64,000 nucleotides of DNA, from positions 5,089,491-5,153,490 of the forward strand of contig JARUPZ010000016.1 in the NCBI GenBank assembly GCA_031213475.1, read 5' to 3'. Below, one piece after another: positions 21,245-61,400 of this stretch (position 1 is the stretch's first letter; each line of letters starts with the position of its first letter). A program made the translations under genes and the position numbers. The DNA comes from Nereocystis luetkeana. Its lineage: Eukaryota > Sar > Phaeophyceae > Laminariales > Laminariaceae. The notes beneath the pieces are model-generated. The model did not search any database. It was given only the letters and a program-made list of their open reading frames with translations, and was not told the origin of the DNA.

Positions 21245-21352
21245 TATTACGGGGGACCATAGTTAATAGGACCTATGGTACACATAAACACCTATATATT
21301 TGGCCATTTTTACTAACAATATTTGGTCCTATTAACTATGGTCCCCCGTGAT
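21245..21352. mobile_element. MITE family A, copy 4 (near-perfect inverted repeat)
   Basis: Ends TATTACGGGGGACCATAGTT and AACTATGGTCCCCCGTGATA are almost perfectly complementary. Subterminal AATAGGACC pairs with GGTCCTATT. The middle carries TGTACC / TATATATTTGG and TTTTTACTAACAATATTTGG. This copy and the one at 56572 are the least diverged in the window. Confidence 0.9.
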
Positions 21353-36600: not shown

Positions 36601-39600
36601 TTGCGTATTTGTCAGAAACTCAGACACGTCGAGCCAAAAACACGCCAGTCAGATAGATGCAAAAGACGCAGAACTTCGCAAACCACCGCTCGCAACTGAC
36701 TGTTTAGTTACATTGCCAGCTATTATAGGTGATGCCAACTATTAATATTAACCATGACCAAGGTCAGTTTGCGGCTTTTAGTCAGCCACAACCCGCAGCT
36801 GTACTAAACTGCTTGTAGTGTTCGTCCTTTATTAATAGTATTGACACTTTCCCCCCCTGAGATAAAGTCTCAAGCAGGCTATAAAATATTTTGGAGTCAG
36901 GCATGGCGACCTGAAATTCGACAAGCGCGGTCTCACCAACCTTGTAGGAAATGAGCGTGCTAGAGTACAAGCATTTCTTGGAATATTTCGCGCGTTCCGT
37001 ACATCTTCTGTGGCACTTTGGAGACATGCCACCCTATATACTAAACCAGGTGTACCCCAGCACGTAGTCCGGACATGCTGCTGTTGCCGATGCTGACTGC
37101 GGTCGTCGCTTTTTTCCTCCTCTACCCATGAAACTGTTTTCCAAAAATATGAGCGTATGATCAAACAGAGGACTGTTAACCCTTTTAGTACTGCAGTCCC
37201 GTTTTGGGGGCAAAGTACTTGGAATTTGAGTGGTTTGTCCTCAAGTCGGGACTGCAGTAGTAAAGGGGTCAACACCGCATTAATGTTTCACTGGTTATCG
37301 GGATGTTTTTCACCACCACCCCCACCCGAAAACATACGGGACGCACTATCACGCATGAAGCCCCAAACGAGGCAAAAATTAAGCACTGCTGGTGCGTTGA
37401 TTTGGTTGTTTTTTTCAAGCCAGCAGCCATTAACAGCCGGTGGCGACGAAGCGGGCGCAGGAAGAAACCAGTTTTACCTCTTCTCCAACTTCGCATCTAC
37501 TAACTGTATACTTCGAAGTATATGATATGATACAATCGGACAATAGGCGGATCGGATCGTCCGCAAGAGAAACGTCTGCGCAAACAAACGTTTTCGTAAC
37601 GATTTACGCACGCGTGTGTATGTTCTCCACATTAAACCGCTCTGTGTACTCGTCGACATCCAGCACATGCAGTGCAGGTGCTGATTCTCTATATTAGCTA
37701 GAAACATGTCACACAAACTCAGAGGTCACGATCTACGAGACAAAAGATAATACGTCGTAAAAGCCCTGTCATAAAGAGACACCTGGGAAATACTACAGGA
37801 GTATTGCAGTATACTGCTGTCGCAGCAAAATTTCGTTGCTGACAGATTGATGCACCCGGCCGCCCGGCGATACTAATGTCCGCGTAACTTTTCCTGGGTG
37901 ACTCCTGGGGCACTCCTGGGGTTAATAGCGCCGGCATGGTTTTTGTATTGCTGTGCGGGTGCCGCTGTCTCGCGAGCGGGTTGCCGCCGTCTTGCGAGCG
38001 GATTGCCGCACCGACCCGAGAACCCAGCCAACTGCAGCAGCCGCAGAGCAGCAGCACGTGCAACGACAGGTTCATATGAGTGTTCGCACGTAGCGCTGCT
38101 GTTTGTCCTAACAATACCAGAGTCCAGAGTTCATGAGACAGTTGGTATACGCGGCCTTTTCTGGTCCAGCGAACGCTATTAATAGTATCGATCCCGAAGT
38201 GACAAGGCATCATGTGATTGCGGTAGCCATCCTCTTTTCTAACCTATTGGCGTCCAGCAGTTGACTGCTGATAGTTACAGCGACTTTAGGCCCCCTGACG
38301 TCTTCGTGTAGGGCGCATTGGGCACAACACTATCGATAGAAGGTTTTTACCGGTATACCGGTGTGATACTCGTAAAATGTTTCCCTCCTTGACTTGCGTC
38401 GGTACGTATTTATTGGGGAAGTCAGATGACATGCAGTTACTGGTGGTGGTCGAAGTGAACGAGCGCTGCGACTTATATCCCCCCTGTTGCTTTTCTCGCT
38501 CAGTCACTGGTGGTGGGAAGTGAATGAGCGCTACGGCTTATCCCCCCCCCACTGCTACATTCCTCGCTCTACTGGCACAGCTTGGCCTTGGTCGTCGCGG
38601 TATCCGCCCCCTCCCGAAGGATGGAGGCCCCCGCCCGCAAGCCCCACTGCTGTAATGCAATCAACCAACCAACCATTGTGCTTACTACCAGTATTACTAG
38701 GGTATGCCTATGCTCTGGGGTACCTGGGCACGAAAAATTGCATGCCTAGGACAGATCAGATAGATTATTCCCACAGTTCATGATCTAGATCTTGCGGGGA
38801 AGACATATTACTGAGCTGTATGATCTATGGCGCATGTTGCCCGCCTGGGAGGCTGTATACTCAGCATGATCTACTACTGTAGGACAGGTTTCCTGAGTTG
38901 GTTGTGAACTGAAAAGATCCTGCACAACATCTCATAGCGGCAGGTTAGTATCGACACGATATATCTGTGGATGATCTATATGTAGATGATCTATCTGTCC
39001 GATGTGTAAAGCCTCGTTTCGGTCGTACTCGGGTACGTACCCTGGTCCCCTCAGAGTATATATACGAGTTTCACTTGACCACATTTTTGTAAACCAACCC
39101 ATTCAATCAAGCCATTCAATCCACCCAACCAACCGCCCTGGTCATTGAAAACCCGTTTACATGAGCATGATAGCTCCCCCGCGCTCCCCCGCGCCTCCTT
39201 TGAGCGAAAAAAACAAGCCAATACACGAACCCGATCCCCCCCCCCCCCCCCCCTTTCCTTCCCTCGGCCCTGAAACAATCAAAACATTGCAAAACAAACG
39301 AAATACGCACACCGGTCCGGCATTACACACAAGACCCGCCAAAGCCAAAACACCTTCCAAGCCTAGGGCCAAGACCTCCCCTGCCGCCCGCAAGAAAAAA
39401 GGCTCTTCTGGGGCCGGGGGCAAGGGGGCGACGCCGAAACGCCGCAAAAATACCGCGGATGTTGACGGCGGCGGCGGTGACGGATTCGGTGCCGGAGTGG
39501 AGGATGCGGTAATGGAATCGGCGGACGGGAGCGGGGGGGATTCGGATGATGATGAGCCGCCGGCGGCGGCCGCGGCGAGGAAGGCGGCTCGGGGTAAACA

Positions 39601-42107
39601 ACAGCAACAACGTCGCGCCTCCTCCGCGGCCGTTGAGGTGCGTCGTGTCGAAAGATCGCTAGGAATAGAAAAGGGCGCTTCCTTCGGGTGGGTGATTTGT
39701 TTTATATACTCGACATCGTTTGTTATTCACATGTTGATAGGTGCAAACATGTCAGGTAGTATCTGTTGAGTGGAATTATATCTGTTACACAGCGGGGTGC
39801 AATTATGTCAAGGTGATGTCTGTTAGGTGCGATTATGTCAGGTTTTGTATGTTAGGTACAAGTCTCTCAGCAGACGGCGGTTTTGGGCGTCGTTCGTCAG
39901 TGACACCTCTTGGAGCTCCCACACTATTAATACGATATAACTACAGCAGTAGTACGAGTATACGTTTCAAGTCTAGACCGCCGTCTGTCTCAGAGCTGAA
40001 CCTCCGTCTCCTGACATATAAACAGATGTGACAGGGGTGGCATGGGATCGCTCCTTTCCCTGTTTCGAATAACTTAGCAATATTGTCCTTGTGCCTGTTC
40101 TTCCGGCACAGGTGTGGGCAGTATTGTGGACCGAAAAGTTGTTAACCAAAACTTGTTTTTTCGGTCGGTTTTTGCTGACCGAAACCGACCGTTTTTTAAG
40201 TCGGTTTTTCGGTTGCCGAAAACCGACCGAGACCGGAAACGGACTCGTTTTTTTTCCTTGATTGTATATTCACCTGGCCCCTACGCCGATAACGCCTACA
40301 CAATTGTGTGGAAACCCCGAAAAACGACCGAAACCGACCAACAGTCTCGAGTGTGGGTTCAAACCACGCACTGGCTTCTTCCTCCGCAGCCGGTGGTGAC
40401 TACACGCCCATTTGTCTCAATACGTTCTTCTACCGTTGAGATTAGTTGTTTTGAACTCATGATGCGTTCTGGGGGACAAATACGCCTCTAAAGTGGACAC
40501 CTTGCAGCTCTTAACTGTTAGATTGTTGCCATGTGAACAGCCACTACGTCGACCACTAATCCAGTGTTTCTCCAACCCCTGCTCGGCTGCAGCTACGTTT
40601 CGGGGATCAACCACTTGGATTTAGAGTTGCGTTCGTTCGTTTTCTCTCAGTAAATAAGGTCGGGGAGGAAAGTATGACGCGCTATGTGAGGGGCGGGGGC
40701 TGGAGATGGTGTTTTTTTTTTGTCGATGTTGCGCATTTGGGAATCGTTCGACGACTTTCCGTCCGACCTACGTGTGGTCTGGTGGATGCCGTCGGCTGTA
40801 CTTTTACCGCCTTTTTATTGCTTGTGAGCGATTTCCACACCATGCAGCAGTGTGCAGCAGTGTGGTGTGGTGTGACGAGGCTGCCGTTGTCGATGCCGAG
40901 CGGTGATTTAGTTGGGTCGCGGTTCGGTGAGGGTCAGAGTGCGGTTGCGGTGTGATGAGGTGCGGTGTGTTCCGTCCCTCGGCTTTTTTCTTGGCAACTG
41001 AGGACAGCGGCCGTGTTTGTTTGGAACGGCCTCCTGCAGTGCTATATATCGGTGATGTCTTTATTAAACGTATCGACTACCGGTAGAAGCAATGTTGGTA
41101 CCTGAATGTATTGCCGCCGTTCTGCGATTCGTAGCAGGAAACGCCGCCCAAACGGCCCGGTGATGTAGTAAGTTTGTCCCCGGAAACTTCTCCAAGCGCT
41201 TCGCACACGAACACATGGGCAGAAGTATATCCATACCGGTATGTATAGTATGTCCTTCAATCGGGTACACCAGTTGTAGTGGGTTTCCCGCGTATGCCAG
41301 GTATAGTATAAACCACTCCGGACGGAAATGTAAGAAACGTTGGGTCTTCATATTAATGTATAAACGCTCTTCATATTTCCGTCCAATAAGTGGTATAACT
41401 TCGTACTGGGTCCGTCCATTTTCCTCGCACACATATGGGCGCGTTTTTTTATTTCTCTGCCTGCGATGACATTGACTGCGGCGGTGATGGCGCGCGGCGC
41501 GCGCGTGCAAAAAAACAGGAGGATGAAGACGACTCGGACTCGGACGAGGAGATGCAAGACTACGATGACGGCTACGGGTCTGACCTCCTGGGCCAGGGAG
41601 AGGAGCGACGCAGCATCCAAGCCCTCCCCGAGGTGGAGCGAGAACGCATCGTGTTTGAGCGGTTCCAGAGACGGCAGGACCGGGAGGAGCAGGTGGCACT
41701 GAGGAAGCGCGTCGAGAAGAGCAAGGCGCGCAGCGGCAGCCTCGGTGGCGGTCACGGTGTGGGCGGGGGTGCGGACTCGGCGTCGGCGGCCGCGGTTGCC
41801 GCCAACAAGGAGGCGGAGGCGGCGCAGGCGGCGCGCGTGGCCGAGGCGACAGCCACGGCAGCCGCGCTTGAGAACGACAGCAGCAGCGGTAGCGTTAGCG
41901 GCGACGGCGACGGCGACGGCAGCGGCCGTGGCGGCGGTGGCGGTGGTGTTGGCGGCGGCGGCGGCATCGGTGGTGGTGGTGAGTCTGGTGACTCTGATGA
42001 GGAGGAAGACGGAGCGGTGGGACAGCCGGAGCATGACGACGATGATGATGATGATGATGATGATTCTGACGAGCCTCCGCAGCAGCAGCGGCGGCGGCTG
42101 GATGCCG

Positions 42108-42138
<31 letters not shown>

Positions 42139-45100
42139 GGTGGCTGCACCAGATGCTGCGGGTGATTCCGCTGTTGCTGCTGAGGCGACGGCGGTGGGGA
42201 AGGGAGCGTCGACGAAGTCAGCGGCGGTTGAGGAGGATGAGGAGGGTGACGAGGCGGAGGAGGGGAGGGAGAAGGAAATGGAGGAGGACGAGGAGGAAGA
42301 CGATGACGCGGCCCCGGTGCGCGGCGGGGCGCGGGTGAAGCCGCGCAAGAGATCCGCCGTAAGGGAGGAGAGCGACGAGAGCGACGACGATGGAGCGCAC
42401 CAGCGGGCGCGAGGGGCACCGCAGGTGGGCTCGGGCAAGGCCGGCTCCGGGAAGAGATATGACAGGTGCGGTGGAGGCGGCGGCACCGGCAGTCGTCAGA
42501 GGTGGTTGTGGGAGGGCTGTAGAGACCTTGGCCCAGTTTCAGCAACAAATGGTTGAAGTGTACGTTACTTTTATGCACTAACCCAAATGCCGACCGGCTG
42601 GAAAATTTCTCGGATTTTTTTCATGTGATTCAAGGGTTAGTGTGGATTATCAACCATTTTGTGGGAGCGGAGCTGGGCAGTACTCGTTTACGGAGTATAC
42701 TGCGGGGGCTGATGTGTTTTGGTTTTGACCGTTATGGTGCCGTTTGCTTTGTGGCGGGTATTTTGTGTGTAAAATATGGTTTTGGCTGGCGGCGGCGGGG
42801 CTGGCGGCGGGGTAGGCAGAATGAAGAATGCTGCGCGTTGTGTAAGTAGTGGCCACCGAGTCGAGCGGAAGTTCGCTGCGTTTAGGTGGCATTCGCGGCC
42901 CGCGGCATAATCGGCGATTCGCGCCACAGTACGACAATTCGCGTTCGTCTGGCGAGCTCTTTATTGATACCCTGGTACGTAGCCTTCTCTTTCTCTGCCC
43001 GCCCGCCCACTTCGTTCTTCTTCCCCTTCTCCCTCTCGTTCTCCTTTCCCCTCCTCCCCACCTTATCTCCGTTCGCCTTTGTCTCGTTGTCTCTTGTTAT
43101 CGTTCATGTCCTCGCCTCTGGCCTTTTTTTTCTTTCTCCTCCGCCTACCCTCTCGCCTACTTCTCATTCCCCGATGCTGGTGTCGGATTTAATCCGGTTA
43201 TGATGATGCCGTGCGTACGTTCTCATCCAACACGCGCTCGTTTGGATTTTTTTTTCTCGTTTTTTTTTTTTTTTTGGTTTTTGGTTTTTGGTTTTCCGCC
43301 GTGGAGCAGCGACGACGATGATGACGACGACGACTATGACAACGGCGGCGGCGGGAGTGGAAACAGGGGCAAGAACAAGGCGAAGGGCAAGGACGGCCGT
43401 GGGTCATCCTCCCGCTACTCCCGCGGTAGGTCTCGGTCGGCCACCTCGAGCGACTCGGACGACGACTCGGACGACTCGTACGAGAGCCGCCGGCGATCCC
43501 GCCGCGACGACGACAACGCCGGGGGCCGTAACAACAAGAGCGGCGGCAGCCGCAACAAGGGTGGCAGCAGCAGCAACCGTGACCGTGAGCGCTACAGGCG
43601 CTCCAGCCGCTCCCGCTCCCCCCCCAACGCGGGGTCCAGCAGCAGACGCAGCCGGAGCAGGGACCGGGATCGCCGACGAGGGGGAAGGGGCTCCTCCAGG
43701 TCGAGATCGCGGTCGAGGTCGCGATCAAGGTCGCGATCAAGGTCAAGGTCGCAGGGTGGCAGAGGGCGTGACGGCAGCGGCCGTGGCGGGAGCCGAGGGG
43801 AAGGTGGGCGGGGCAGAGAGCAAGACTGGCAGTCGCCGGTGCGCGCGCCCGAGCCGGAACCGGTGCTGGAGGACATCAACCGCTGCAGGGTGCCGCGGGA
43901 CTACCTGGAGCGCTGGGCGAACGAGCCGTACTTCGAAAAGGCGGTCCAGGGATGCTTCGTGAGGGTGGCGAGGGGCGTCGGCCGGACGGGGGAGAGGCTG
44001 TACGTGATGGCCGAAATTGTCGGCGTGGCGCCGTACAAGAGGAGATACAAGATTGTGAGTTTTGCGGGTTGGTTAGGTGGTTGATTGGTTGGTTGTTTGG
44101 TTGGTTGGTTGGCGCGCCTGGGAGGGAGTGGAGGGGGGGCGGAGAAAGAAGGGATGGGGGGGTCGGGGGGGGGGCAGAGGGGGACGAGGGATGGGGGGGG
44201 GTTGGTTGGTCTCGAGGGCTGATTTGCCTTTTTTGTGATCGTTGCTGTTCTTGCTCGCTTTCCGCCTTGCTTGTTCAACCTTTGTCTTTCGAAGGGTTTC
44301 TATTGCATCCCCGGCGGGGAGGGGGGTGTCCATTCCCAATAGTTGTTGTGTGCGGAGGGGGGGAGGGAGGTAAGCGTGCGCATAGCCTCACTCAGCCTTT
44401 AGGACCTGGTTGTAGTGGGGCCGACCCTCGCGTGCTACTCGCTCACTCACTGCCTGAAGTGATGTGGTTGTGTGCCCGTTTCGGACTGCCGCCGTTGCCT
44501 GCAACCCCTTTCGTGCTGTCCCGCTCATCCGTGTTGCTTCAATAATCGTTGGGCTCCCCCGCCGCTCGTCTCGCCCTCCTTCCCTTTCTCCTTAACCCCT
44601 CCCCTTCTCTTCGCGAGGGTTTATGGTCATATGACTACGGCCTTGCATGGTATCGAGTACCCCCCCCCCCCCCCTCCCCCCACGAGTACGGCCATGCATC
44701 ACATGAGTACACCCCCCGCCGCTGTTGTATCCCCCCCCGCTCCATTGACCCCTACACCGCTTTCGCAGTTATTTGTTACTCGTTGAAGACACGTCTATTG
44801 CTGCGTCCTGATTGGCTTAGTTTTGTTTCCGCTTTATCTCTCTTCTCTTTTTATCTCCCGCTTGCTGTTGATAGTTGATAGCACGCCATTACTTTGTTTT
44901 TCTTCCCCGGAGGTGCCTTGCATGTGCGTGTGTGTGTGTGTGTTTTTTTTTGTTCTTGTACGAGTATTATTACTCTCAGGTACTGTATTTGGTTTAATTT
45001 ATTCCTTTTCCTTCTTGTTCTTCTGTACAAAACAAAAGGGAAACTCGTACACGGCCAAATGCCTCAAGATCTCGTCGAGCACGGCCCAGGAGAGGGACCA

Positions 45101-45704
45101 GTGCATGGACATCGTCTCCAACTCGCGCATCGCGGAGAGCGAGTACACGCGGTGGAAGGACGGGCGGAGGGGGGTCAGGGCTCCCACCCTAACTGTCTCG
45201 GAGTGCACCGCGCGCCGCTTGCGCATGAACAAGATCGTCCAGGGGCACAAGGTGACCCCTAATTTTTTTTGTGGTGGTGGGGGGGGGGACCGGTAGCGTG
45301 AAGTCGGGCAAGGAGAGGGCTTGAGGGGGGGGGTGGGATAAGCGGGTAGGTAGTTGGGGTAGTCGTGGGGGAGGGGGGCGGTGTCGGTGTTAGTGGTCGT
45401 AGTTGTGATTGTTGTGATTGTTGTCTACAGTGGCGGTGGTTGTAGTCGTGATGGTGATGGTGATGATGGTGGTGAAATGTTGTGGTGCTTATAGTGGCAG
45501 GTGGTCGCGGTTGCGGTGGCGGCATCAGCAGCGGTAACCGCAGCCAATATCCGCAGCGGTAACCGTACAGTACAAGCGGTCGCAGCGGTAACCGTACAGT
45601 ACGAGCGGTCGCAGCGGTGGCAGCAGCGGCGGTAGCAGCAGCGGTAGCAGTAGCAGTAGCGGTGGCAGTAGCAGTAGTAGTGCAGTAGCAGTAGTAGTAG
45701 GTAT

Positions 45705-45770
<66 letters not shown>

Positions 45771-48700
45771 CGGTAACAGCAGTTGCGTTAGAGATAGGGA
45801 GAGGCTGATAGTCGGGCTGTACGTGTTGATGAATTACCTTATGCCGTTTACCGCGTCGCATCTCTCTGCGAGGTGGGCATAATTATATTTTATGTTGTGA
45901 GCTGCCACTCGCTAACCCTGGAGTCCGTGGATTTATCTCGTCTTGTCTTGTGTTCGTATTGTCTTTGTAGTGTCTTGTCGCCCGTGTGCTGTATTTCGCC
46001 CGTGGGCCTGTTTTCGTAATTGCGCATTTTTTTAGGTTATTGTTTCTCACAAATGGAGCACCAGGTAGACATGTTTTACCGTCGCTCTCTAATGGGCGGG
46101 GACCCCCGGAACATAAAAGCCTACTTACCAAGTATCTACCCATTGTATTGGGTAGTGGGTTAACCGCTCGCTTCGATGATGGACGGGAGACTACGTACTT
46201 CCATCATTTTTTTTTGCGACGTACATGTGTTCCGGTTGTTGCCTGAAAGCATGGAGGTTAACTAAGCTTCGAGATTTCATACTTCCCTCAAATGTCATTT
46301 TCGCAAGCTTGGCGCCATAGTTACGATGATATCAAAGCTCGCTACGGGGGGTGCAGGAGTGGTCTCCATATTCCAGACGACCAATTCACATGTACACTGT
46401 GGTTTTCGTAGCCTCAATGCGAAAAACGACCCTCGTTTCATACTACTATCAATACCTTCCACCTAATATTGAGCATGATTGGCATTATTGAAAATCGTTT
46501 TTTGCGCTAGCAGGCTGTTTCTTACGGTAGCGATTTTTTGTTTTCGGCCGACTTTGGTGTTTGCTCCCTATATATTCCAGGTGTTTGGTTGTTTTAGATC
46601 GCTCACCCGAATCGGTTTCGGCGCAACCCCCCCCCCCTCCCCCACAGGAAATTTAGTAGTCGTGTGACTATTACAGTGTGCGCTTTTCAATCTTGTTCTG
46701 CACTTCAATCTTGTTCTACAGTACGTATATATACAAATCGGTGTCACAATTGCGTTTTTCTTTTTTGTCGTTCGATTGTTAGTTTGCATTTTTGCGATTT
46801 TGTTTTACGTATGTATTGGTATACGATAATGAGCGTTCATCATATTGACAGTAACGTTTTTTTATTTGTGATTTTGTGTACTTGGCTTTTTTTCTTTGTT
46901 TTGTTTCGAATTGTCCCAGTATTCGGCAGAGGAGGTAGCCCGCATGGTGAAGCAGCGGCAGGGCGAGGGGGTGGCGTACAAGAACGCCGCCCTATCTCGC
47001 ATTAAACTCTCCAACTCTCTGGAAGCGGCGATCGTGGAGGGGAGGGAGGAAGAGGCCGACTTCTGCAGGGAGCAGCTCGCCAAGGTGAGAGATCGCGGTT
47101 TCCCACAAGGATTTCGGAGGCCGGGAGGAGGGGGGGGTGGTGTAAGAGATTTTCCACAAGAGTCTCATCAGTGCGGGAAACTGGTTTGTTACGGGGGGGG
47201 AGGGAAGGGCGAGCGGGAGGGATTAGAGGAGGGGGTGGTGGTGGGGGGGGGGGGGGGGGGGGGAGGGGGCGTACTCATTTGTTGCTTGCTTAGTTAGAGG
47301 GACGCTAAGTTGAGAAGTTTTCCACAACGATCATATCAGGCCCGGAGAGTGGTTGGGGAAGGGAGGAAGGGAGGGGTGGGGGAAAGGGGAGGGGGAGGGG
47401 AGTGTAAGGAAGGGAGAGAGAAATCGACATTCGGTATATTTGTCATCATGGAAGTGGATGCTCGCAAGCAAGTACACGCATGTTTTTGTCATGAAAGGCA
47501 CTTTCAAGATGTGGGGTGGGACGGCCACCTTGTGGTGACGATGGTGATCTTGGTATTGTTATGGGGGTTCTAATACATACCACTATGCCCCTATATAGAG
47601 GGACCGTGTTTCATTGAATGGAAGTATACAAACGGTGCATATGTTTGGGGACATAGTGGTAGTGATATGCAGAGCGTTCAGTGTCACACGGGGGTAGCTG
47701 CAGCCGGCAAGAGCCGAACGGAAGGAACTGTCACCGCTTCGATGATAACTGTTGACAGGGGGGCGTTTTGATGGCCGACGATCAAACGGACCGAACATTA
47801 TTGCTATATGTGTCGCTGAGCTTGTTGCCTCCCCTGACACCTCGTCGCGTTCCCTGGAGCGGGGCAAGGAGATGGAAAAAGTGCCCTTCGCGTTCCTGCT
47901 AATCGCTTTTGCGTTGGTTCTTTGGTGGTTCGTCTTTTTTTGTCGATCGCTGCTCTGCTGTTCGTTGTCGTTGCCTTTGTTTTCTCGGTTTGTTGTTGTC
48001 GCTGTTGTCGTCGTTGACGTCGTTGTTATCGTTCCCGCCGCCGCTGCCGCCGCCATCCCTCTGATGAAACAACATCGTGCGCTGGAAACAAATGCGTTTC
48101 TTTTTTTTTTCATCATTCCTCGACCGGTCGGCCGATGGCTTTTGATTTCGACTCACTTGCTCTCAACCGCGGCGGGCCGGGGGGGGGGGTCGGGTCTCGG
48201 TGGGTTTTGGGGCGGCGGCGGCGGCGACGCAGCTTGACGAGCGAGTGGCGCAGACGAAGAAGAGCCTCGACTCCGGGGCTGCAGGAATGCGAGCTCTGAA
48301 CGAACGCAACAAGTCGTTCAATGTCCACACCGACACGCACATCGGCCGCAAAAAGCGCTTGGAAGAAGCCAAGCGCAGGTATGGGCGTTTGTGTGCGTGC
48401 GTCCGTTCATGTGGAAGAGGGGTGGGGGGCGTTGGGAGGGGGGGGGGGTGGGTTTGGCAGAAAGTTCGTCAAGCTTTTTTAGGGAAAACAACATCCCCGT
48501 TTTTGGGCACAAACCACTCAAATGCTAAACACCTTGTCCCCAAAACGGGACCGCAAGCCTAAAGGGAAGGGTTTAGGGCCCTTACTACATTTCTGGGCAG
48601 AGTTGTCATATTTTTGTTGTAACTACGTATGTCGACATTTTTTTATTTTTCCTGGGCGTCCATTGGTTCTGAGTCCATGGTGATGGTGGTGGTGGTGGCG

Positions 48701-51700
48701 ACCGTCGACACAAGTGAGAGGCCGCAGCTTCCGACATTTCTCCGGCGACGTGTGTTACGCTAATGGGGGCAACTTGAGCATTTTTTTTCCTCCTGACGCT
48801 CCCCGCTTGAGAAGATCTACATCATTTTCAGGATGTCTCATAACCCCACAAGAGCGATCTTCGACGGAAATCCGCGATGTATTGCCAACCAAGCGGCAGA
48901 ATTTTGCTCGCGCTTTGAAAGGGATTGTGGGGGTGGCGGAGACGTTTGCGCAGGCAGTGCTCTTCGCTATCGAAGCATATTCGATTCCAAGCGATGTTTC
49001 TGTTTCTTTTACCGCCCATTCCGCCAGTAGTTGCACGCGTCGGACAGCTCATGTACAGATCATATAAGTCATCTGCGGATAGATGATCTGCAGTTCATCT
49101 AGATCCTAACCTGCCGTCAATCTATATTGCGCGGAATCTGTAGAGTACAGATCTACTGTAACCCGGGAGACGTGTTCTAGATCATGCAGGTTATACGGCT
49201 CCCACCCGGCAACATGAGCTGTAGATCATGCAGATCAGGAATCTAGCTGACAGATCATAAAATCTAGCTGAACTGAAAGATCTATAGATCATGGAAGCAG
49301 TAACCGATGGTCTGTCTGAGGTGTTGGTAAGCATCTGCCGTGGCTGGAAACCTGACCAGCGTCGACAACCGCTCCTACCAATAACTTGACCCCTGTTCTC
49401 GGTGGCGAACGTCATGCACGCCGCCCCAAGCACATCCAAAGCGGCGGGTTCTGGAGTCGGTAGAAATATTCCACACCTCAGATATATCATGATCTATCTG
49501 CAGATAGATAATCTAGTTCCTCACCTGTCGTTGCGAGAGGTTTGTGCAGGATCTGCATACGTAGTACAGATCCAACCTACCACGTAGGAAACATTTGCTG
49601 TAGAGTGGATCATGCGGGTTCTACCACTCCCACTCGGCAGCATGAGCTAGATCGTACAAAAATCGGGAATAAGATATTCTGCCTTGGAATATCCACGAAG
49701 TAGATCATGAGGTGGGAATCGATGGTCTATTGTCCGAGGTGTGGGAGGTGTTATTGGGGGCAGCGGTAGTCGGATCTCTGCGGCCCCCGGGTGCGGAAAG
49801 TACTTGCACCGCCTCCGGAAGCGAGGGTGCGAATGCTTCGACAGCGTGCACCATCACCGTGTGAGTTACGTTGTTGACGCTTGTTGATGCATTCGAACTG
49901 GCGGATTTGGATGACGGTGGAATGAAAGTGTTCTCCGCATCTGTGGCTCTGCGCAGCTTCGACCCCGATTCCGCCAAAAAATACTTTCATATCTCGGGGA
50001 CAGCTCATTCACAGATCATTCCCACGTGATGAATCTAGATGTTTCAGGGCAGATATACTCCTGATCTGTATGATCTGTATGCTCTGTAGCTCATTTTGAC
50101 GGGTGGGAGCCGTGCAATCTGCATGATCTCCTGTAGGACGTGTTTCCTGGGTTGGATCTGTACTTGATCCTGCACAGCGGCGTACCATATCAGCAGATTA
50201 GGATCTAGATGGTCTATCTGTAGATGATCTATCTGTGGATCATCTATCTGTTCGATGTGATAGTTTCATCTATCGGTAGATGACCTATCTGCAGATCACC
50301 CATCTGTTCGATGTGATCTACATGATGTATCTGTAGATTGTTTATGTGTATGCGTGAAGACTTTTCGTCGTCTAGTGGGGGCAGACGTTGTGCACTCTGC
50401 CGAATCATACGAGCAGGTGGCTTTAGAGGCGGTGGGAGTATCGGTGGCAGCAGTGGTGTATCATCAGTACTGTAGTATGTCCGACGTATTGAGTCCGTGG
50501 CCACAGACAGGACAGGCTCCAAAGATTGGAGCGGAAGAATACGCCAGGGACAAAATCTAGCCAAGTCAAATTGTACAAGAACAGCCAGATACACATGCAT
50601 GATTGAAACACATCGTACCACCTCACACAGGAGAAAATCTCAGAAGCATGCAAATGTCCTAAGAAAGATTACAGTTCAATTTATAGATCCCGCCTGTTTT
50701 TAAAGGAGTTGAAGCGCGTTTAACGTTTTTGGTATTTATCTCTATATATACTCACATGGCGTATATACGTCGGGTTATGGTGTGCCGCTTTCCGTTTTCA
50801 TGTGGTCACCCTTTTTACAACCCGGCGGGTATCCGTCGCGACTACAGCAACCAAAATATCGACGAATGGGATGTTTTCAAGCGTCTGGGAAGAGCGTGCC
50901 GCAGGACTACTGGTTTTACAGACTGCTTGGGACTTCGGAGAGGAAAAGTTGACCAAAAAAGAAGTGGCAATTTCAGCAAAAAACGGTCACTGCGTGGTTT
51001 GGGGAGTGATACAAATCTGGCGCCCGAGTTACGGTGCACGGAGTCGTGCGGCACGGACACAGCATGACCCCACGCCTGCTTCTGGGCGCTCACGGTGCTG
51101 CTCGTGGACGGTTCAATGGTTGACAACACCAAAGCTATTAACCGTTGATTTGGTCCTTGTGTCGGAGCCTCCCAAGGGAGTGTTGGCAGCAACGCCATGC
51201 TGCGCGAAGTGCTGTACCACTCCTTATATACCAGGTATACACCAGATGCATTGCAAGTTCGCCCACTACAAATACGCCTGCCACCCGGGCATCTATCACA
51301 CATGCAACTCAAAAACGCGCGCGAAAACGGCTTCTTCTTTTTTTTTTCTCTTCTTTTCTTTTTTTTTGTATCTCGACCCTCCTCTCCTCTTCTGCCCGCC
51401 CCCCCTGTGTACTATGCTTGCGGTACACCAGAGAGGCATCGGCCGCCGGAGACGAGGGCGACTTCGACCCCTTCAAGCGTCGCTCCTGCCGCCCCAAGAT
51501 CCTCTGGTCCGTTGGCCAAAACAGCCCCTCGCGACAACAGCCCGCCGCCGGCGGCGCTGCAGGCGAAGGCGTGGAGGAGGATAAGTCGTCAGACAATAAC
51601 CCACTAGCGCCTGGGACAAGCGCTAATGGCGACGATGGGGCGGCGGCGGCGGCTGCCGATGCGGCGGGGGCTTCCGGCCCAGGAGGGCTCCAGAAGATGC

Positions 51701-51846
51701 ACAGCTTTGGAGGCATGGACGTGCTCGAGGCGGGGAGGGTAGCGCTGGAGAAGCGCATGGGCGCGGTGAAGCCGACCTCGGCCCCGCGGCAGGGGGGCAA
51801 GCTAACGCTAGGGAAGTACCTCGAGAAGGCTCGCGTGGACGCGTGA
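33608..51846 (+). CDS. RTF1: RNA polymerase-associated protein RTF1 (Paf1 complex, Plus3 domain)
   Basis: Eight exons, 1,020 residues: 33608-33735, 39334-39637, 41519-42465, 43310-44054, 45039-45251, 46920-47084, 48233-48378 and 51432-51846 (TGA). All introns are GT/AG with matching phases. RTF1 links the Paf1 complex to elongating RNA polymerase II through SPT5 and stimulates histone H2B ubiquitylation. Exons 1-2 encode a basic and acidic disordered start. Exon 3 begins with the HMD-like block DGYGSDLLGQGEERRSIQAL...ERFQRRQDREEQ, then poly-Gly, poly-Asp and poly-Ala tracts. Exon 4 carries an Arg-Ser repeat and the start of Plus3 (DINRCRVPRDYLERW, GCFVRVARG, EIVGVAPYKRRY). Exon 5 continues Plus3 (VSNSRIAESEYTRWK). 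Exons 6-7 are the helical region after it. Exon 8 has FDPFKRRSCRPKIL, matching the DPFTRRQCKP motif of animal RTF1, and ends LTLGKYLEKARVDA. An in-frame TGA 36 nt upstream supports the start. Introns 1 and 7 (5.6 and 3.1 kb) carry many transposon-like repeats. Confidence 0.93.
34100..35110. other. Intron segment dense in TACCAGGTA words
   Basis: Within RTF1 intron 1, TACCAGGTA/TACCTGGTA and its halves recur many times, including two adjacent copies at about 34923-34940, together with ACGAGTAC and CAGTACTGCTG words. There is no coding signal and no obvious single repeat unit. Confidence 0.55.
35168..35271. mobile_element. Hairpin MITE family C, copy 3
   Basis: GACTGCAGTGCCGTTTGGGG, the loop TACTTGGAATTTGAGTGG and CAATGAACGGGACTGCAATC form an imperfect hairpin. 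RTF1 intron 1. Confidence 0.75.
35743..35998 (-). mobile_element. AGATC-family element, copy 4
   Basis: Reverse copy: AAGTCGGACATATCATCTAC, TACAGATCCAGCCCAGGAAT, TGGCTCCCACCCGGCAACGT, CCTGAAATATCTAGATCG and GGGAATCGATGATGTGACCG. RTF1 intron 1. Confidence 0.7.
36318..36420. mobile_element. MITE family A, copy 6 (left end trimmed)
   Basis: The left end reads TATTACCATAGTTAATAGG, lacking the CGGGGGA part. The right end is intact (AATATGGTCCCCCGTAATA). Internal TGTTTACCATAGG is present. RTF1 intron 1. Confidence 0.85.
37176..37272. mobile_element. Hairpin MITE family C, copy 4
   Basis: TAACCCTTTTAGTACTGCAG and CTGCAGTAGTAAAGGGGT are the outer inverted ends; CCCGTTTTGGGGGCAAAGTA and the TACTTGGAATTTGAGTGG loop lie inside. 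Best reference copy for the family's full ends. Confidence 0.8.
38743..39008 (+). mobile_element. AGATC-family element, copy 5
   Basis: CCTAGGACAGATCAGATAGA at the left, ATGATCTAGATCTTGCGGGG, GAGCTGTATGATCTATGG, GTTTCCTGAG, AAGATCCTGCAC and GATCTATCTGTCCGATGTGT at the right. It ends about 325 bp before RTF1 exon 2. Confidence 0.75.
39735..39995. repeat. Short tandem units next to an inverted pair
   Basis: Three to four units of about 30 bp (AGGTGCAATTATGTCAGGT, then TGTCTGTT) run from 39735 to 39860. Beyond them, CAGCAGACGGCGGT at about 39869 and ACCGCCGTCTGTCTCAG at about 39976 form an inverted pair roughly 110 bp apart. RTF1 intron 2. Confidence 0.5.
40124..40350. repeat. AACCGACC / GGTCGGTT inverted-repeat cluster
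   Basis: Dense alternation of GGTCGGTTTTT and AACCGACC words in both orientations (for example TTTTTCGGTCGGTTTTTGC and CCGAAAACCGACCGAGACC). It ends with CGACCGAAACCGACC near 40340. It can fold extensively. It could be a terminal region of a transposon or a decayed foldback element. RTF1 intron 2. Confidence 0.5.
43690..43755 (+). repeat. Coding hexamer/dodecamer repeat giving Arg-Ser dipeptides
   Basis: Units of AGGTCGAGATCG / AGGTCGCGATCA encode alternating Arg-Ser in RTF1 exon 4. Codon-level periodicity shows recent expansion of the RS tract. Confidence 0.85.
44608..44720 (-). repeat. CATGCATGG-CCGTAGTCG family repeat, reverse partial copy
   Basis: GAGGGTTTATGGTCATATGA, CTACGGCCTTGCATGG, a C16-like run, and a second ACGGCCATGCATCACATGAG unit. 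RTF1 intron 4. Confidence 0.6.
45600..45775. repeat. (GTA)n microsatellite with GGTAGCAGCA start
   Basis: An AGCGGTAACCGTACAGTAC duplication precedes an AGTAGCAGTAGCGG stretch and then a nearly pure GTA run of about 20 units (45705-45768). RTF1 intron 5; on the other strand it would read poly-Thr/Tyr/Leu-type repeats without splice support. Confidence 0.85.
48470..48573. mobile_element. Hairpin MITE family C, copy 5 (reverse)
   Basis: Reverse orientation: CCCCGTTTTTGGGCACAAAC, CACTCAAATGCTAAACACC and TTGTCCCCAAAACGGGACCG, then CCTAAAGGG. RTF1 intron 7. Confidence 0.7.
49034..49325 (-). mobile_element. AGATC-family element, copy 6
   Basis: Starts ACGCGTCGGACAG and ends GATGGTCTGTCTGAGGTGT. 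Contains CATCTAGATCCTAACCTGCC, GGCTCCCACCCGGCAACATG, AGATCAGGAATCTAGCTG and a local duplication of the ATCTAGCTGA word. RTF1 intron 7. Confidence 0.75.
49471..49744 (-). mobile_element. AGATC-family element, copy 7
   Basis: Starts CACACCTCAGATATATC and ends GGTCTATTGTCCGAGGTGTG, so the two ends match as an inverted CACCTCGGACA-type repeat. RTF1 intron 7, about 150 bp after copy 6 in the same orientation. Confidence 0.75.
49990..50345 (+). mobile_element. AGATC-family element, copy 8, with duplicated 3' end
   Basis: Opposite orientation to copies 6 and 7. The full element runs to CATCTATCTGTTCGATGTGA at about 50262. The terminal module (ATCTGTTCGATGTGATCTA and relatives) is repeated once more to 50345. 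RTF1 intron 7. Confidence 0.7.
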
Positions 51847-52616: not shown

Positions 52617-53070
52617 CACCTACGACGAGTGCTACTGCTTCTACTTTTTATGCTAAGCCGAGCGAGCCTTTTTTTCCTGTGCAGAAGTGGTGGTCCATCT
52701 AAAGAGCCGGTTGAGTTGTGCACTGCACGTACAACTAGTGCTACTGCTTCTAGTTTTTATGATCAGCCGCGCGAGCCTTTGCTGCTTGTACAGTATTACG
52801 GGGGACCATAGTAAATAGGACCAAAAATTGTTAGTAAAAATGGGAAAAACATACTGGTATAGTTTTTTGTGTATAACATAGGTCCTATTTAATATGGTCC
52901 CCCGTAGTAGTGGTCCCTCTTTAGTGCCGGTATTGTTGGCTGGCCTGCTGCCCGCTATTGTGCCTGCGAAATCGCTCGGCGCAGATTGGGATTAACCAGT
53001 GTAGCAGTGTGCGGAGTATATAGTGCCGGTCGCCGCTATAATAGTACCGATATTGTTGGCTGGCGCATAT
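52617..53070. repeat. Two pairs of local direct repeats
   Basis: GAGTGCTACTGCTTCTACTT at 52629 is echoed by AGTGCTACTGCTTCTAGTTT at 52738 with continuing similarity (CAGCCGCGCGAGCCTTT). TAGTGCCGGTATTGTTGGCT at about 52922 is echoed by TAGTACCGATATTGTTGGCT at about 53041. The spacing is about 110-120 bp in both pairs. A family A MITE sits between the two pairs. Confidence 0.55.
52794..52908. mobile_element. MITE family A, copy 7
   Basis: TATTACGGGGGACCATAGTA and AATATGGTCCCCCGTAGTA ends, AATAGGACC / GGTCCTATT subterminal pair, and the GTGTATAACATAGG centre. Confidence 0.88.
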
Positions 53071-55409: not shown

Positions 55410-58400
55410 TCAAGTACTCAGCCGGAGGCGTTTTGGATCCGGTTCTCCCCCAGACGTGGGTGCCTGCTGGTCCGCAGTCGCGGCAGCATCGGCGCCCCCC
55501 CCCCCCCCCCCCTCCTCCTCCCCCCCCTCTCCCCCCCCTGCCACTGCTCGGTCCGCCTCGTTTCCGTTGGAGGGCGGACTGCCGGCACTTTCTACCCCTT
55601 CCCCACCCCCACCCTCATCCACCGCCGCACGTCTACCCTCCGTAGTCGGGCTGGCTCCGTTGGCTATCGAACCGATACCGCCGGCACCACCACCACCGCC
55701 GTCGCTGTCACCGACGCCTCCCTCCCCCCCTCCCTCCCGCCTACCGCGATCGCTACAACTCCTACTGTTACTGTTACCGCCGCTAGCCAGGGCCTCCGCA
55801 TCATCTCCTGCTCCCACCCCCGCCTCCGTTGTACCCGCCCCTGCTTTTGCTTCTGCTCCTGTTTCTGCTCCTGCAGCAGGCGGCATGCCTTCGGGCCGCG
55901 TGGAGGAGGTGGAACCTTCCAAGGGCATCTCTTCACTCCGCCGGCCATCATCCGCGTCGCTGTTCCCCCCCGCGACCACGACCAACATCGGTGTGGGTGG
56001 CGCGGTGGGGGTCAGGCCGCCGCCGCCGCCATCACCACCACCATCACCACCATTACCACCAAGCCCACTGCCGCCGCTTTCACCGCCGCCGGTGGTTTCC
56101 TCCTCCACTGCCTTCATAGGCAAAGGACCGACGTCGTCATCGCTGTCATCTTCGTCACCGTAAGCAACAAGACTTAAGCCTGATGGGAGTTGTAAAACAG
56201 CGGCAGGTGGCACCCGGGGGGAAATGGAGGGAGTTGAAGAGAGAAGTGAGGGAGGGAGGGAGGGAGGGAGGGAGGGAGGCCACAAAAAAATGACTAAGAG
56301 TACGTGGCATGGTACCATATGATACTGAAGGCGAACTTCTCGAAAACGCCGTAACGACTCGCCCCTCCTCAACAGGGCCTTCCTCCAGCAACAGCAGCAG
56401 CAGTAGAGCAAACCCTTGAGCGGCCGCCGACGGCCGCTTCTGGACCCCCCGTGCCCCTCCCCGCTTCCGTTCCCTTCACCCCTGTCCGCAACGCCAACAA
56501 AAAACTCCGAAAGCATCTCTGGCTTTCAACAAGCGCAGCCCCTCCAACCCCCATTCTCCCCTTGGTGGTATTATTACGGGGGACCACAGTTAATAGGACC
56601 AAAAATTGTCAGTAAAAATGGTTGAATATATAGGTCTTCATGTATACCATAGGTCCTATTAACTATGGTCCCCCGTAAGAGTATCAATAGCCAATTCATA
56701 CCTGGTAGCCGTCTTCTGCATGAAGTTACAGTAACTGATATGATACATACACATACTTACAATTATCCTTTTCCTAAAATCACTTGATTATAAGCACCTG
56801 CCTCACGCTCAGCGAGTCTCCCACGATTTTTTGTCGCTTCTATATACGATCTTTGCTTTCTTCGCGTTAATTGCTTTCTTTGCGTGCTTGCTTCTCGTGC
56901 CACATTTGTTTCCCCGGAACAATAGAAACAAAATCTCGGAAAAAGAAAAAGTCGATTTTGTTTTTTCAGCGGTTTGGGAGGTTCTCTTTTGCTTTTTTTC
57001 ACCGGCTGGTTGAAGTTTCTTTTGCACTTCCAGTTATTTTTTTCCTTTTTTTCTTCTTCCGTTTCGTGTGCGAAGTGTGTAGTCGGAGCACGGCGACGCG
57101 GGGGAGCCCGGCGCCGTCGCGGGTGTCGGCGGATGCTGGCGGGTAGAGGGGGGGTTGCAAGGAGCGCGGTCGCGGTTTTCGTGGCTAGGCGTCGTGTGTG
57201 CCTCGAGACACAAGGAAAGCATGAATGGGCTCTGTTTTGCCTCCATCTGAAAACTTAGACTGAGCATGTACGAGACCATAAGGGTCATTCGGGATTGCAA
57301 GCTAACATTCAAGCGGTGCAAATTTTTGCGACCACGCTGAATGAACTATACAGAGACGTATGCCGTCTGACCATCGACATCGTCGAGCTGGCGAACGAGG
57401 GTCACGGTGAGCACCGGGCTTCACGCGGGGCGGGCGACGGGGATCACTGTGACAGAGAGGGAGGAAAGCTTTACCCGGACCGAATCGGTGGCGAGGTAGT
57501 CGAGAGAGGGGCGGGCGGCGTGCGAGGCTGAGAGAGAAGCTCTGCTGTTTTTTTTGTTTTTTTTTACTGGTGCAAGGCGTTCCAGGGGCAGGCAATTATT
57601 ACATGAGAGGGGACGTGGATTTTTTTTCCTCTTCCCGAATCTTTCGGTTTCATTTTCATTGTTTTTGCGGTGCTGCTGCTGTGCCATGTTGTGCTTTCTC
57701 GTTCGTACATACCAGGTACATACAGCATATCAAAAGAAGAAAATCAGTACCGTACCTGCGGTATGTATGTACATACGTACGTACGTACGTACGTACGGCA
57801 TGTGACTCTTGGCCTTATCAAGTCACCAATTTGAAACTACAGTAGCGGGAAGGGGGTAGAAGAGCCTGCTATGTGACCCCGGATCTGAGTCACGAGTTGG
57901 TAGGAGAGAGAAAAGAAGATGTGCGAAGATAATAAACGAGATGAGCGAAACAAAAAAAACAAAACAAAAAAAAACTACAACAATCATAAATATATATATT
58001 CAATCATCGACCTCCTGTCCGCTTCGCGTAATTCGATGTACTTTTTCTTCCTGAACGAGAGTAGCGGGCGGCGTAGGCCGCCCGCGGAGCGAAGCGCCTT
58101 GTACCACTTACTATTTGTTTTTTCTAGGTGACGAACCAACAGAGGCTTGTCAACCTCTGTTAACAGCCTGCCAGGTGTACATAACAGCCTCCCTCCCCCC
58201 CTACCTCCAAAATCCTACCCCCATCCCTATCCTACAAACCTCTTCCTTCGCACCTCCCCTGCCCCCCCCCCAAACCGCCTGATATCGAGTACACCCCCCC
58301 TGACGTGCTCCGTCCCGGCATTGTAGCGATGCGAGGGTCTATCGTCATACGAATACGGCCATGCATGATAATGAGTACACCCCCCCCACACACACAGCTT

Positions 58401-61400
58401 GCACTCCCACCTCCTCCTGCTGCTGCTCCTCCGTTGGCTCGGTGCGGCCCTATTCCCGCCGCTCCGTCGCCGCTACCGCCACCGCCGGCGCCGCCGTCTG
58501 AACCCATCCCGGACCAGCGGCCGTCTCCCGCAATCCCCACCCCCGCCCCCGCTTCATCGTCGTCCTCGTCCGACTCGTTAAAGTACGCCTCGTCGCCGTC
58601 CTCCTCGGCCATCTTGCGCCGGTTTTGCGCCGCCCGGTTACCTCTGCTCGCGATTCCACCGTGCCCCCCCAATAGACCAACACCAACAAAGATGTTCAAA
58701 ACACGTACACATACACACGAGCCGGAGGTGCGTCATGGAGGGAAAGGGGGGGGGGGGGGGGGGGGAGGGGGTTGGTCAGTAGACAGAAAGCTTGGCTTCA
58801 TGATGAATGATATCATACGTACAAGGTACGAAGCATTCGGTAACCTACGGTGGAGTGTGCGGGCCTTCCGATGACATAAGCGCAAAGGCTAGTTGCTGGT
58901 CTCATTATGAATATGAAAAAAGCACAGTCCTTCGTACATCATACCTGGTGTATATCAAGTACTGCATATCCCTCTGTCAATCTTTACGGTCTCGGTTCCT
59001 ATTTGTAGGGAGCAAAATGCAAAAAAATAAATCTACTGGTGAAGGAGGTCAGAAAGGGGCTCTTGGCCGAAGGCTCTGGTCGCGGCAAACTTGTCGATGG
59101 GTAGGTGGGCGGGTGAGGTTTTCTATACCGCTTCGTAACCCTGGCGATGCCTTCTTCCCTATACGGCGAGGTGAAACCGAGGTGGCTCTCGAAAGCCCTT
59201 CGGAAGCCCACCGCGAGCGAGCGCTTTGTATCTATCTGGCAGTGGTAGCAGCAAACCGGTTGATGTGAAATACCGCAACGATACTCGTATTTGCTGAAGC
59301 GCCACGAAGGTGTGGTGAAACACGAAACAGAAAAAAAAGGCGCAAACAAAGAGACAGGGCACCCTCCCTCCCCTTTACCCCCCCCCCCCCTCCCCCCTCA
59401 ACCAGCCCCTCCGTCCCTCCCCACAAACGCAAAAACTCAAGCTCACCTGCCCCCGCCCCCGCCACCACCCCCGCCAGCCCCAAGACCGCCGCCACCACCA
59501 CCGTCCACGCCGAAGTCTCGATCGCGGTTCTCTCGAAGGTCCACGTTCTGCTCGTGCTTGAGCTTGATGCCCTCGAGGGTGGCCGAGTGCAAAACTTCGA
59601 GGAAGGAAGCCGAGAATCGCTCCACCACGTGTTCCACAAGACTCTTCACGTTTTCTGCGCGGATGAACTGTTCAATTTATGAGGATATGTTTTGAAAAAA
59701 AAAAAAAAAATGGGAAAGGAAAGGAAAGGAAGGAGAAAAAGAGGGAAGGGGGGTGGGGGGGGAGGGTGGTATAGGTGATAGGGGTTGTGAGTGGAGGGAG
59801 AAGACGATGATCCGTGTCATAGATGATGTATGTGTCACACTCAGAAAAAGAAGGAAGTTTTTCTTTCAGTTGAAGGAGGCATATCTAGCAATGGACAATG
59901 GCGTAGTACCGCTTTTGTTCCGGTTCGCGTGAAACGACTACGTACACATGCATGTTTTTACACCTTATCTGTTGTACGTTTTCACGTACGGTACCACCGT
60001 ACCTACGACTAAAAAAGAGTACCAGGTAGTTACCAATTCATGCCGTTTCCAGAAATATGATACGGAAGCTTTACTCGGGAGGGGTCAGAGGGTGGGTGGG
60101 GTCACCGAATCGACAAAACGGGTGGCGTGACCCCCGTCAGGTAGTGCCCGCAGTGACCCGCGCCCCGTCACTCCCCATCTTTGGTACCTACGAGGTATGG
60201 TATGGGCAGCTCTAAAAGGCTAATATGTCCTCAATACTTTTTACCGGGTATATATTGTACATCTATACGAGCATATGCTTTGAACTAGCGTGCCGATGCA
60301 TTACTGCTACGACCAGCTCCAAAACACTTGGGGGGGAAACACACACTTTGAACATCTCTCTCACCCTCACAAGCGCGATTCCCCCAGACCGCACAGATAG
60401 TGCATACATCAGGGGTACCTCGCAGACAAAAATACAAATCAAGCGTTCCATCGGCCCCGACAGAACTACTGTAGGTCACCAAAAGAGGATCTGATCTGAT
60501 CTGATCTGATCTGTTCCGAGTATGGAAAAATGATGAAACCCTCTCTCACCTCTACGAGCTCGATGACGGCAGAGTTGATCAGGTTGTCACGACCGCGGTT
60601 CTCGCGGAACAGAGCAAATACAGGCGCCAAGAGGTTGTTTTTCACCAGATACCTGTCACCACAATCACAACAACGACAAAAAGAAGAAAAAAAAAAAAAG
60701 AGTGACGAACAGAAACGGGCAAGGTCGAGAAACAAAACCAGGCCAAAATTGTGAGTGAAAATACGAACGCATATTTTTCCGGATACAAAACTAAACCGCC
60801 ACAAAAAAAAGAGGTTAAAACGTGCCGGCGTTGCTTCTGTTACGAACAGTATCAATAATTTCTATTAATATTATTTGTAAGTACCTGGTGTTATTAATAG
60901 TTTCTTAATAGTTATTAATATCAACATCAATTATCGTACATCGATATCGATACAAATATCAGTATACACATCGCACTATTGCCGCAGCGGAATGCTTCGA
61001 GTATATACCCAGATACCAGGTACGGACGGAGCACTCACAAGTTAGCGTCAGCAAAGGATACGTGGTGCAAAATATTCTTGTTCGGGCTCAAGGTTGACAT
61101 TTTGAAACTCTACAAGAAGAAGAAAAAACACCCAGCGAAAAAAAAAAAGAAGCGACAGCACTCAAAAAACACCCAGCGAAAAAAATAAATAAACACCTAG
61201 CTCTTATCGCACCTGTTATAAAACTCGTCCTTGATGCCGACGCAGCTGCGGAGGAAGCGGATGGCCGCGAGTTGGAGGTACCGATCCTTACAAGACAGCA
61301 GTCTCAGCACCCGCGACACCTGCGCGCACCCACCCAGCCCCACCCGCCCGCCACCCATCGCCGCCGACGCGAGAGAAAGTTCGACGACGACATCGCCATA

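Follow-up and report, generated by a model that had tools for sequence, protein, structure and literature searches.

The RTF1 locus

The window, a stretch of 64,000 nucleotides, carries on its + strand a gene whose seven coding exons (39161-51846) join in frame across GT-AG introns into a 1,035-residue model of the elongation factor RTF1. Coding exon 1 (39161..39637) opens on an in-frame ATG, the choice of start codon being a guess, and closes at the donor GTTGAG/gtgcgt; exon 2 (41519..42465) contains the HMD region (~41528-41731), for which phmmer returned an RTF1 homolog chain (E 3.5e-7) and the HMD structure 5e8b (E 0.0065). Exon 3 (43310..44054), delimited by its splice sites and frame, passes from an acidic beginning through an RS linker into the initial part of the Plus-3 domain (residues 663-723, 43872..44054; Pfam PF03126), the remainder of which lies in exon 4 (45039..45251; frame, Pfam and RTF1 alignment). 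Frame and RTF1 alignment likewise place exon 5 (46920..47084), exon 6 (48233..48378) and exon 7 (51432..51846), the last with the DPFKRRSCRPKIL motif and the stop codon.

Plus-3 as a whole occupies residues 663-764 (E 1.3e-25, profile positions 1-106 of 109), and no other Pfam family, RRM included, is found in the 1,035 residues at E<=0.001. From the end of the linker through DPFKRRSCRPKIL the model aligns over 267 aa (E 1.3e-28) with full-length RTF1 homolog chains, which we take to be human; the C-terminal region that follows Plus-3, itself a feature of RTF1, is thus present as well. Human R366 and R388, presumably the phospho-Spt5 contacts, are both aligned with Arg in this protein (numbering from the homolog-chain alignment). 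Together with the HMD match, these results bear out the initial annotation of the gene as RTF1. In an exon-by-exon search of the genome (465 Mb, 1,987 contigs), Plus-3 had one match among the best candidates scored (3/3), and the gene is apparently a single-copy RTF1 orthologue. Orthologue searches in viral and prokaryotic contigs gave zero relatives (2 and 19 pattern-matched stretches), a result with no bearing on algal relatives.

The initial annotation gave the coordinates of the exon at 43310-44054 correctly but counted it as the fourth, whereas it is the third coding exon of our model; the discrepancy could be due to an untranslated 5' exon. The six introns measure 844-3,053 bp (mean 1,596), for which the description "very long" was an overstatement.

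An Arg-Ser tract ahead of Plus-3

Exon 3 encodes RRSSRSRSPPNAGSSSRRSRSRDRDRRRGGRGSS(RS)9 upstream of Plus-3, in keeping with the roughly nine Arg-Ser pairs first reported there, and the presence of an RS tract ahead of the Plus-3 domain of this RTF1 is confirmed. The RS core, RDRERYRRSSRSRSPPNAGSSSRRSRSRDRDRRRGGRGSS followed by (RS)9, spans 58 residues (565-622; 43578..43751, + strand), of which 25 are Arg and 20 Ser (45/58, 78%), with 28 RS/SR pairs and a net charge of +21 when unphosphorylated. Its end is a pure (SR)9S run (residues 604-622; 43695..43751, + strand) of nine R-S units, the array as defined on the DNA being 43698-43751, and a gap of 40 residues separates the core from the Pfam start of Plus-3. 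The linker to which the core belongs has 186 residues (475-660) and changes in charge along its length, the first 60 residues being net -7 and the rest net +28.

SR and SR-related proteins are recognised by an RS region that is 50 aa or longer, has more than 40% R+S and contains consecutive RS/SR dipeptides, and the RS core is a region of this kind. The protein is not a canonical SR protein, because the model is without an RRM (Pfam at E<=0.001: Plus-3 alone). At the level of sequence the tract also has the marks of an SRPK substrate, namely nine consecutive RS units and an SRPK-type exon in the same genome.

Composition does not account for the length of the run, whose 19 residues compare with a maximum of 10 for any alternating R/S run when the 186-aa linker was shuffled 20,000 times; the linker has 38 RS/SR dipeptides, where the shuffles gave 20.8 +/- 3.6. 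With the pure run removed the excess is marginal (20 RS/SR against 14.2 expected, P = 0.048). A six-frame reading of 264 kb, made up of the 64 kb window and 20 further 10-kb stretches of this genome (with L001 and L002 excluded as lying inside the window), gave 94 RS runs, that of RTF1 among them, with a length of 4 residues or more. After that of RTF1 the next longest is 6; the longest other alternating dipeptide run of any kind is 12. A further 15.6 kb, from six loci fetched for other reasons (L023-L028), has a longest RS run of 7, so that in the 279.6 kb examined no RS run other than that of RTF1 exceeds 7 residues. The RS core as a query against its own genome matched only itself, which is no evidence of rarity, since an existing SRDR array in a U1-70K-like gene went unlisted in the same search. 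Against the PDB, the core alone matched 0 sequences at E<=1.

Repeat DNA or retained protein sequence

The DNA beneath the run was initially described as a 6/12-bp repeat, and it does consist of an array of degenerate 6-bp units, for which TRF reports period 12 (3.8 copies, 91% matches) and period 18 (3.0 copies, 77%). The further step taken at that point, that the array is for this reason expanding, finds no support. The nine hexamers at 43698-43751 have the consensus AGGTCG and depart from it at nine sites, and all nine departures are synonymous; an active, pure microsatellite is rejected on these differences among the units. As 28-30% of random changes would be synonymous, the chance of nine out of nine is ~1e-5 if all arose independently, and ~0.001-0.002 (once in 400-800) if there were five events only, the second CGATCA unit perhaps being a copy. 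These figures are for a tract that was noticed for being RS, a bias that array bounds set by TRF lessen and do not remove. Furthermore, only the coding frame (1/6) yields a single dipeptide unit, the other five yielding 2-5. Because every change is synonymous and the array is pure in the coding frame alone, an old, protein-constrained array is favoured over a fresh expansion, and the pattern suggests an array kept for the sequence of its protein.

Upstream of the array lie two RS clusters with TCC and AGC as serine codons, whereas the array uses TCG and TCA except at its first serine, TCC. The case for the clusters having arisen separately depends on these serine codons, because the arginine codons overlap partly with those of the array, those of one cluster among them.

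Splicing-related genes in the same genome

An SRPK-type exon found in this genome is 59% identical over 68 aa to a stretch of human SRPK1, and its PDB matches at E<=0.001, 13 sequences in all, are without exception SRPK1, SRPK2 or Sky1. By sequence, this kinase would be the expected writer of phosphorylation on the RS tract of RTF1. A U1-70K-like gene (L027, C4:9885701-9891700, minus strand) has a borderline Pfam match (E 9.1e-4, above the family cut-off) and N-terminal and RRM pieces recognised by eye, and its downstream open frames encode five SRDR units, in a 12-bp array, together with SRRRRSRSRDRRR. Three of the five twelve-base units are identical and the remaining two differ at 4 sites, all of them synonymous; the SRDR array behaves like the array of RTF1.

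Leo1, with 2 Pfam matches, has no RS run of at least 4 residues in the 3.2 kb examined, which is part of the gene. The genome has 78 RRM matches, and three of these loci, at most 2 kb each, were examined for classical SR genes. None of the three has a long RS run in its RRM frame: two are without an RS run above 4, and the third (L023) has runs of 7 and 6 outside the RRM frame. Two of the three are, we presume, CELF-like and DAZAP/Musashi-like. As the sample consists of one other PAF1C subunit, in part, and 3/78 RRM matches, we make no claim that long RS tracts are specific to RTF1. A gene with two RRM matches recurs with identical scores on four contigs (C27:3166179, C244:32211, C538:28059, C1332:18361), perhaps as uncollapsed haplotype or duplicate contigs.

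Discussion

The RTF1 described here shares with the human PAF1 complex subunit (PDB 6ted) the HMD, Plus-3, the C-terminal DPFxRRxCxP region and long charged linkers, and differs from it in the linker ahead of Plus-3. In human RTF1 this segment is acidic and Lys/Glu-rich, with 3 RS/SR in ~90 residues, against 38 in 186 here as well as a 19-residue pure run; the initial statement that animal RTF1 has no long RS domain holds for human, the sole animal compared. RS segments of this size are familiar from other proteins. The RS1 segment of SRSF1, a substrate of SRPK1, has about eight consecutive RS dipeptides, similar in length to the RTF1 run, although SRSF1 has RRMs and the run here belongs to an elongation factor. 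SR-related proteins such as DHX8 and NKAP (the latter named in PMC4822317) are RS-rich and lack an RRM, as does RTF1 here, and they have no homology to the RTF1 exon beyond low complexity (whole-exon query: DHX8, E 0.1; SRSF1, E 0.34; chain NC, E 0.022).

We propose, tentatively and with a probability of about 0.4, that this RTF1 is an SR-related protein without an RRM, which acquired an RS domain within the disordered linker ahead of Plus-3 and which, once phosphorylated there by SRPK, interacts close to the RNA exit site with RNA or with splicing factors. The Plus-3 domain would dock on the phosphorylated tail of Spt5 close to the RNA exit channel, and the RS tract, 40 residues ahead of it, would for that reason sit beside the emerging pre-mRNA. 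Left unphosphorylated, the tract would be a polycation of +21 that may bind RNA or acidic partners; phosphorylation by SRPK may then release it or turn it into a binding site for other RS proteins, and the tract could thereby assist the recruitment of SR or U1/U2 factors at nascent introns. The proposed link of the RS tract to splicing is plausible.

Several published observations fit these steps. The tail of Spt5, when Plus3 of Rtf1 is bound to it, has been located in the vicinity of the RNA exit channel (PMC10659198). Yeast Rtf1 crosslinks to RNA and binds chromatin in a partly RNase-sensitive manner (PMC5457138), and cotranscriptional assembly of the spliceosome is aided by yeast Spt5 (PMC6800482). 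Among elongation factors of Pol II, CDK12 and CDK13 (CrkRS) bear an RS domain as RTF1 does here; unlike RTF1 they are kinases of unrelated fold, and they bear it at the N-terminus. In CDK12 this RS domain is required for localisation to speckles and for binding SRSF proteins (PMC7272620), and by analogy it is a precedent for an SR-protein-binding RS tract on an elongation factor. Ectocarpus has large introns and makes extensive use of exonic splice motifs (PMC4476162), which would fit a role in splicing if the host is a brown alga.

A stronger form of the proposal, in which RTF1 of this lineage is an SR-type elongation protein whose RS domain, held in place by Plus-3 on phospho-Spt5 and toggled by SRPK, passes SR and U1 factors to nascent introns and so ties elongation to splicing directly and physically, is in our view unlikely. 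Weighing against it, the effect of yeast Spt5 on U5 recruitment is reported not to depend on Paf1 (PMC6800482).

Other readings of the tract have to be set beside the SR-related one. One of them, to which we give a somewhat low probability, is a neutral expansion, in which a hexamer array slipped within a tolerant linker, in a genome rich in repeats, and happened to spell Arg-Ser with no specific role. The linker is probably disordered, judging by its composition, the window has 72 rows of tandem repeats, some overlapping, and the RTF1 model already has 8 homopeptide runs of at least 5 residues (P, A, G, D), so a further low-complexity stretch may be neutral; that RS dipeptides beyond the pure run are in marginal excess points the same way. 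Neutral slippage is harder to reconcile with hexamer differences that are synonymous in 9/9 cases, with an array that is pure in no frame but the coding one, with upstream RS clusters written in other serine codons, and with the finding that no other RS run in the 279.6 kb is longer than 7. Very improbable is the case in which the RS segment is absent from mature RTF1 altogether, through internal splicing or a wrong exon model: GT and AG dinucleotides do occur inside exon 43310-44054, but the exon joins both neighbours in frame, its acceptor (gagcag/CGACGA) follows a long T-rich tract, its donor reads AAGATT/gtgagt, and the conserved Plus-3 domain starts within it.

The tract could also be functional without being a tether to the splicing machinery, as a general phospho-switchable element for RNA, chromatin or import: the basic RS tract would bind nascent RNA or nucleosomes, or its phosphorylated form would act as a signal for nuclear import. 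Phosphorylated RS segments serve as import signals in the lamin B receptor, protamine and SRSF1-TNPO3, and the SRPK-type kinase of this genome would suit such a switch as well. RS repeats show little sequence specificity in binding RNA, and they also bind other proteins (PMC4822317); the RNA and chromatin contacts of yeast Rtf1 (PMC5457138) agree with a general role. The present observations do not discriminate between such an element and a splicing tether. The motifs RSRSPP and RSRDRDRRR resemble the RS/RD tails of splicing proteins, such as that of the U1-70K-like gene of this genome, and we consider the general element doubtful.

Judged by titles and the beginnings of abstracts, the open-access literature yielded no paper on an RS domain in RTF1, which is not proof of absence; in the main text of a 2026 survey of elongation-factor domains (PMC13289920) the terms "arginine", "serine-rich" and "SR protein" do not occur. 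Within that open-access literature, a link from elongation to splicing through an RS-bearing RTF1 was found for no other RTF1. The physical coupling of elongation to splicing is, in our judgement, still an open matter, especially beyond animals and yeast, and if the SR-related reading is true, an RS domain next to the Spt5-binding domain of a core elongation factor would make a simple bridge from transcription to splicing.

Other features of the window

A Pfam scan of 20 of the 45 listed ORFs gave no match, and further searches returned no Rfam family at gathering score and no tRNA. Short tandem repeats based on GATCT lie along the window at 38958-38998 and 50206-50251 (both of the GATCTATCTGTA type) and at 60488-60513. 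MITE-like elements of ~100 bp with inverted ends, ACGGGGGACCA...TGGTCCCCCGT, are found at 21249-21349, 52798-52905 and 56576-56676; the same ends occur as a pair in 3/20 random 10-kb stretches (L010, L015, L016) and as a single end in three more (L004, L006, L012).
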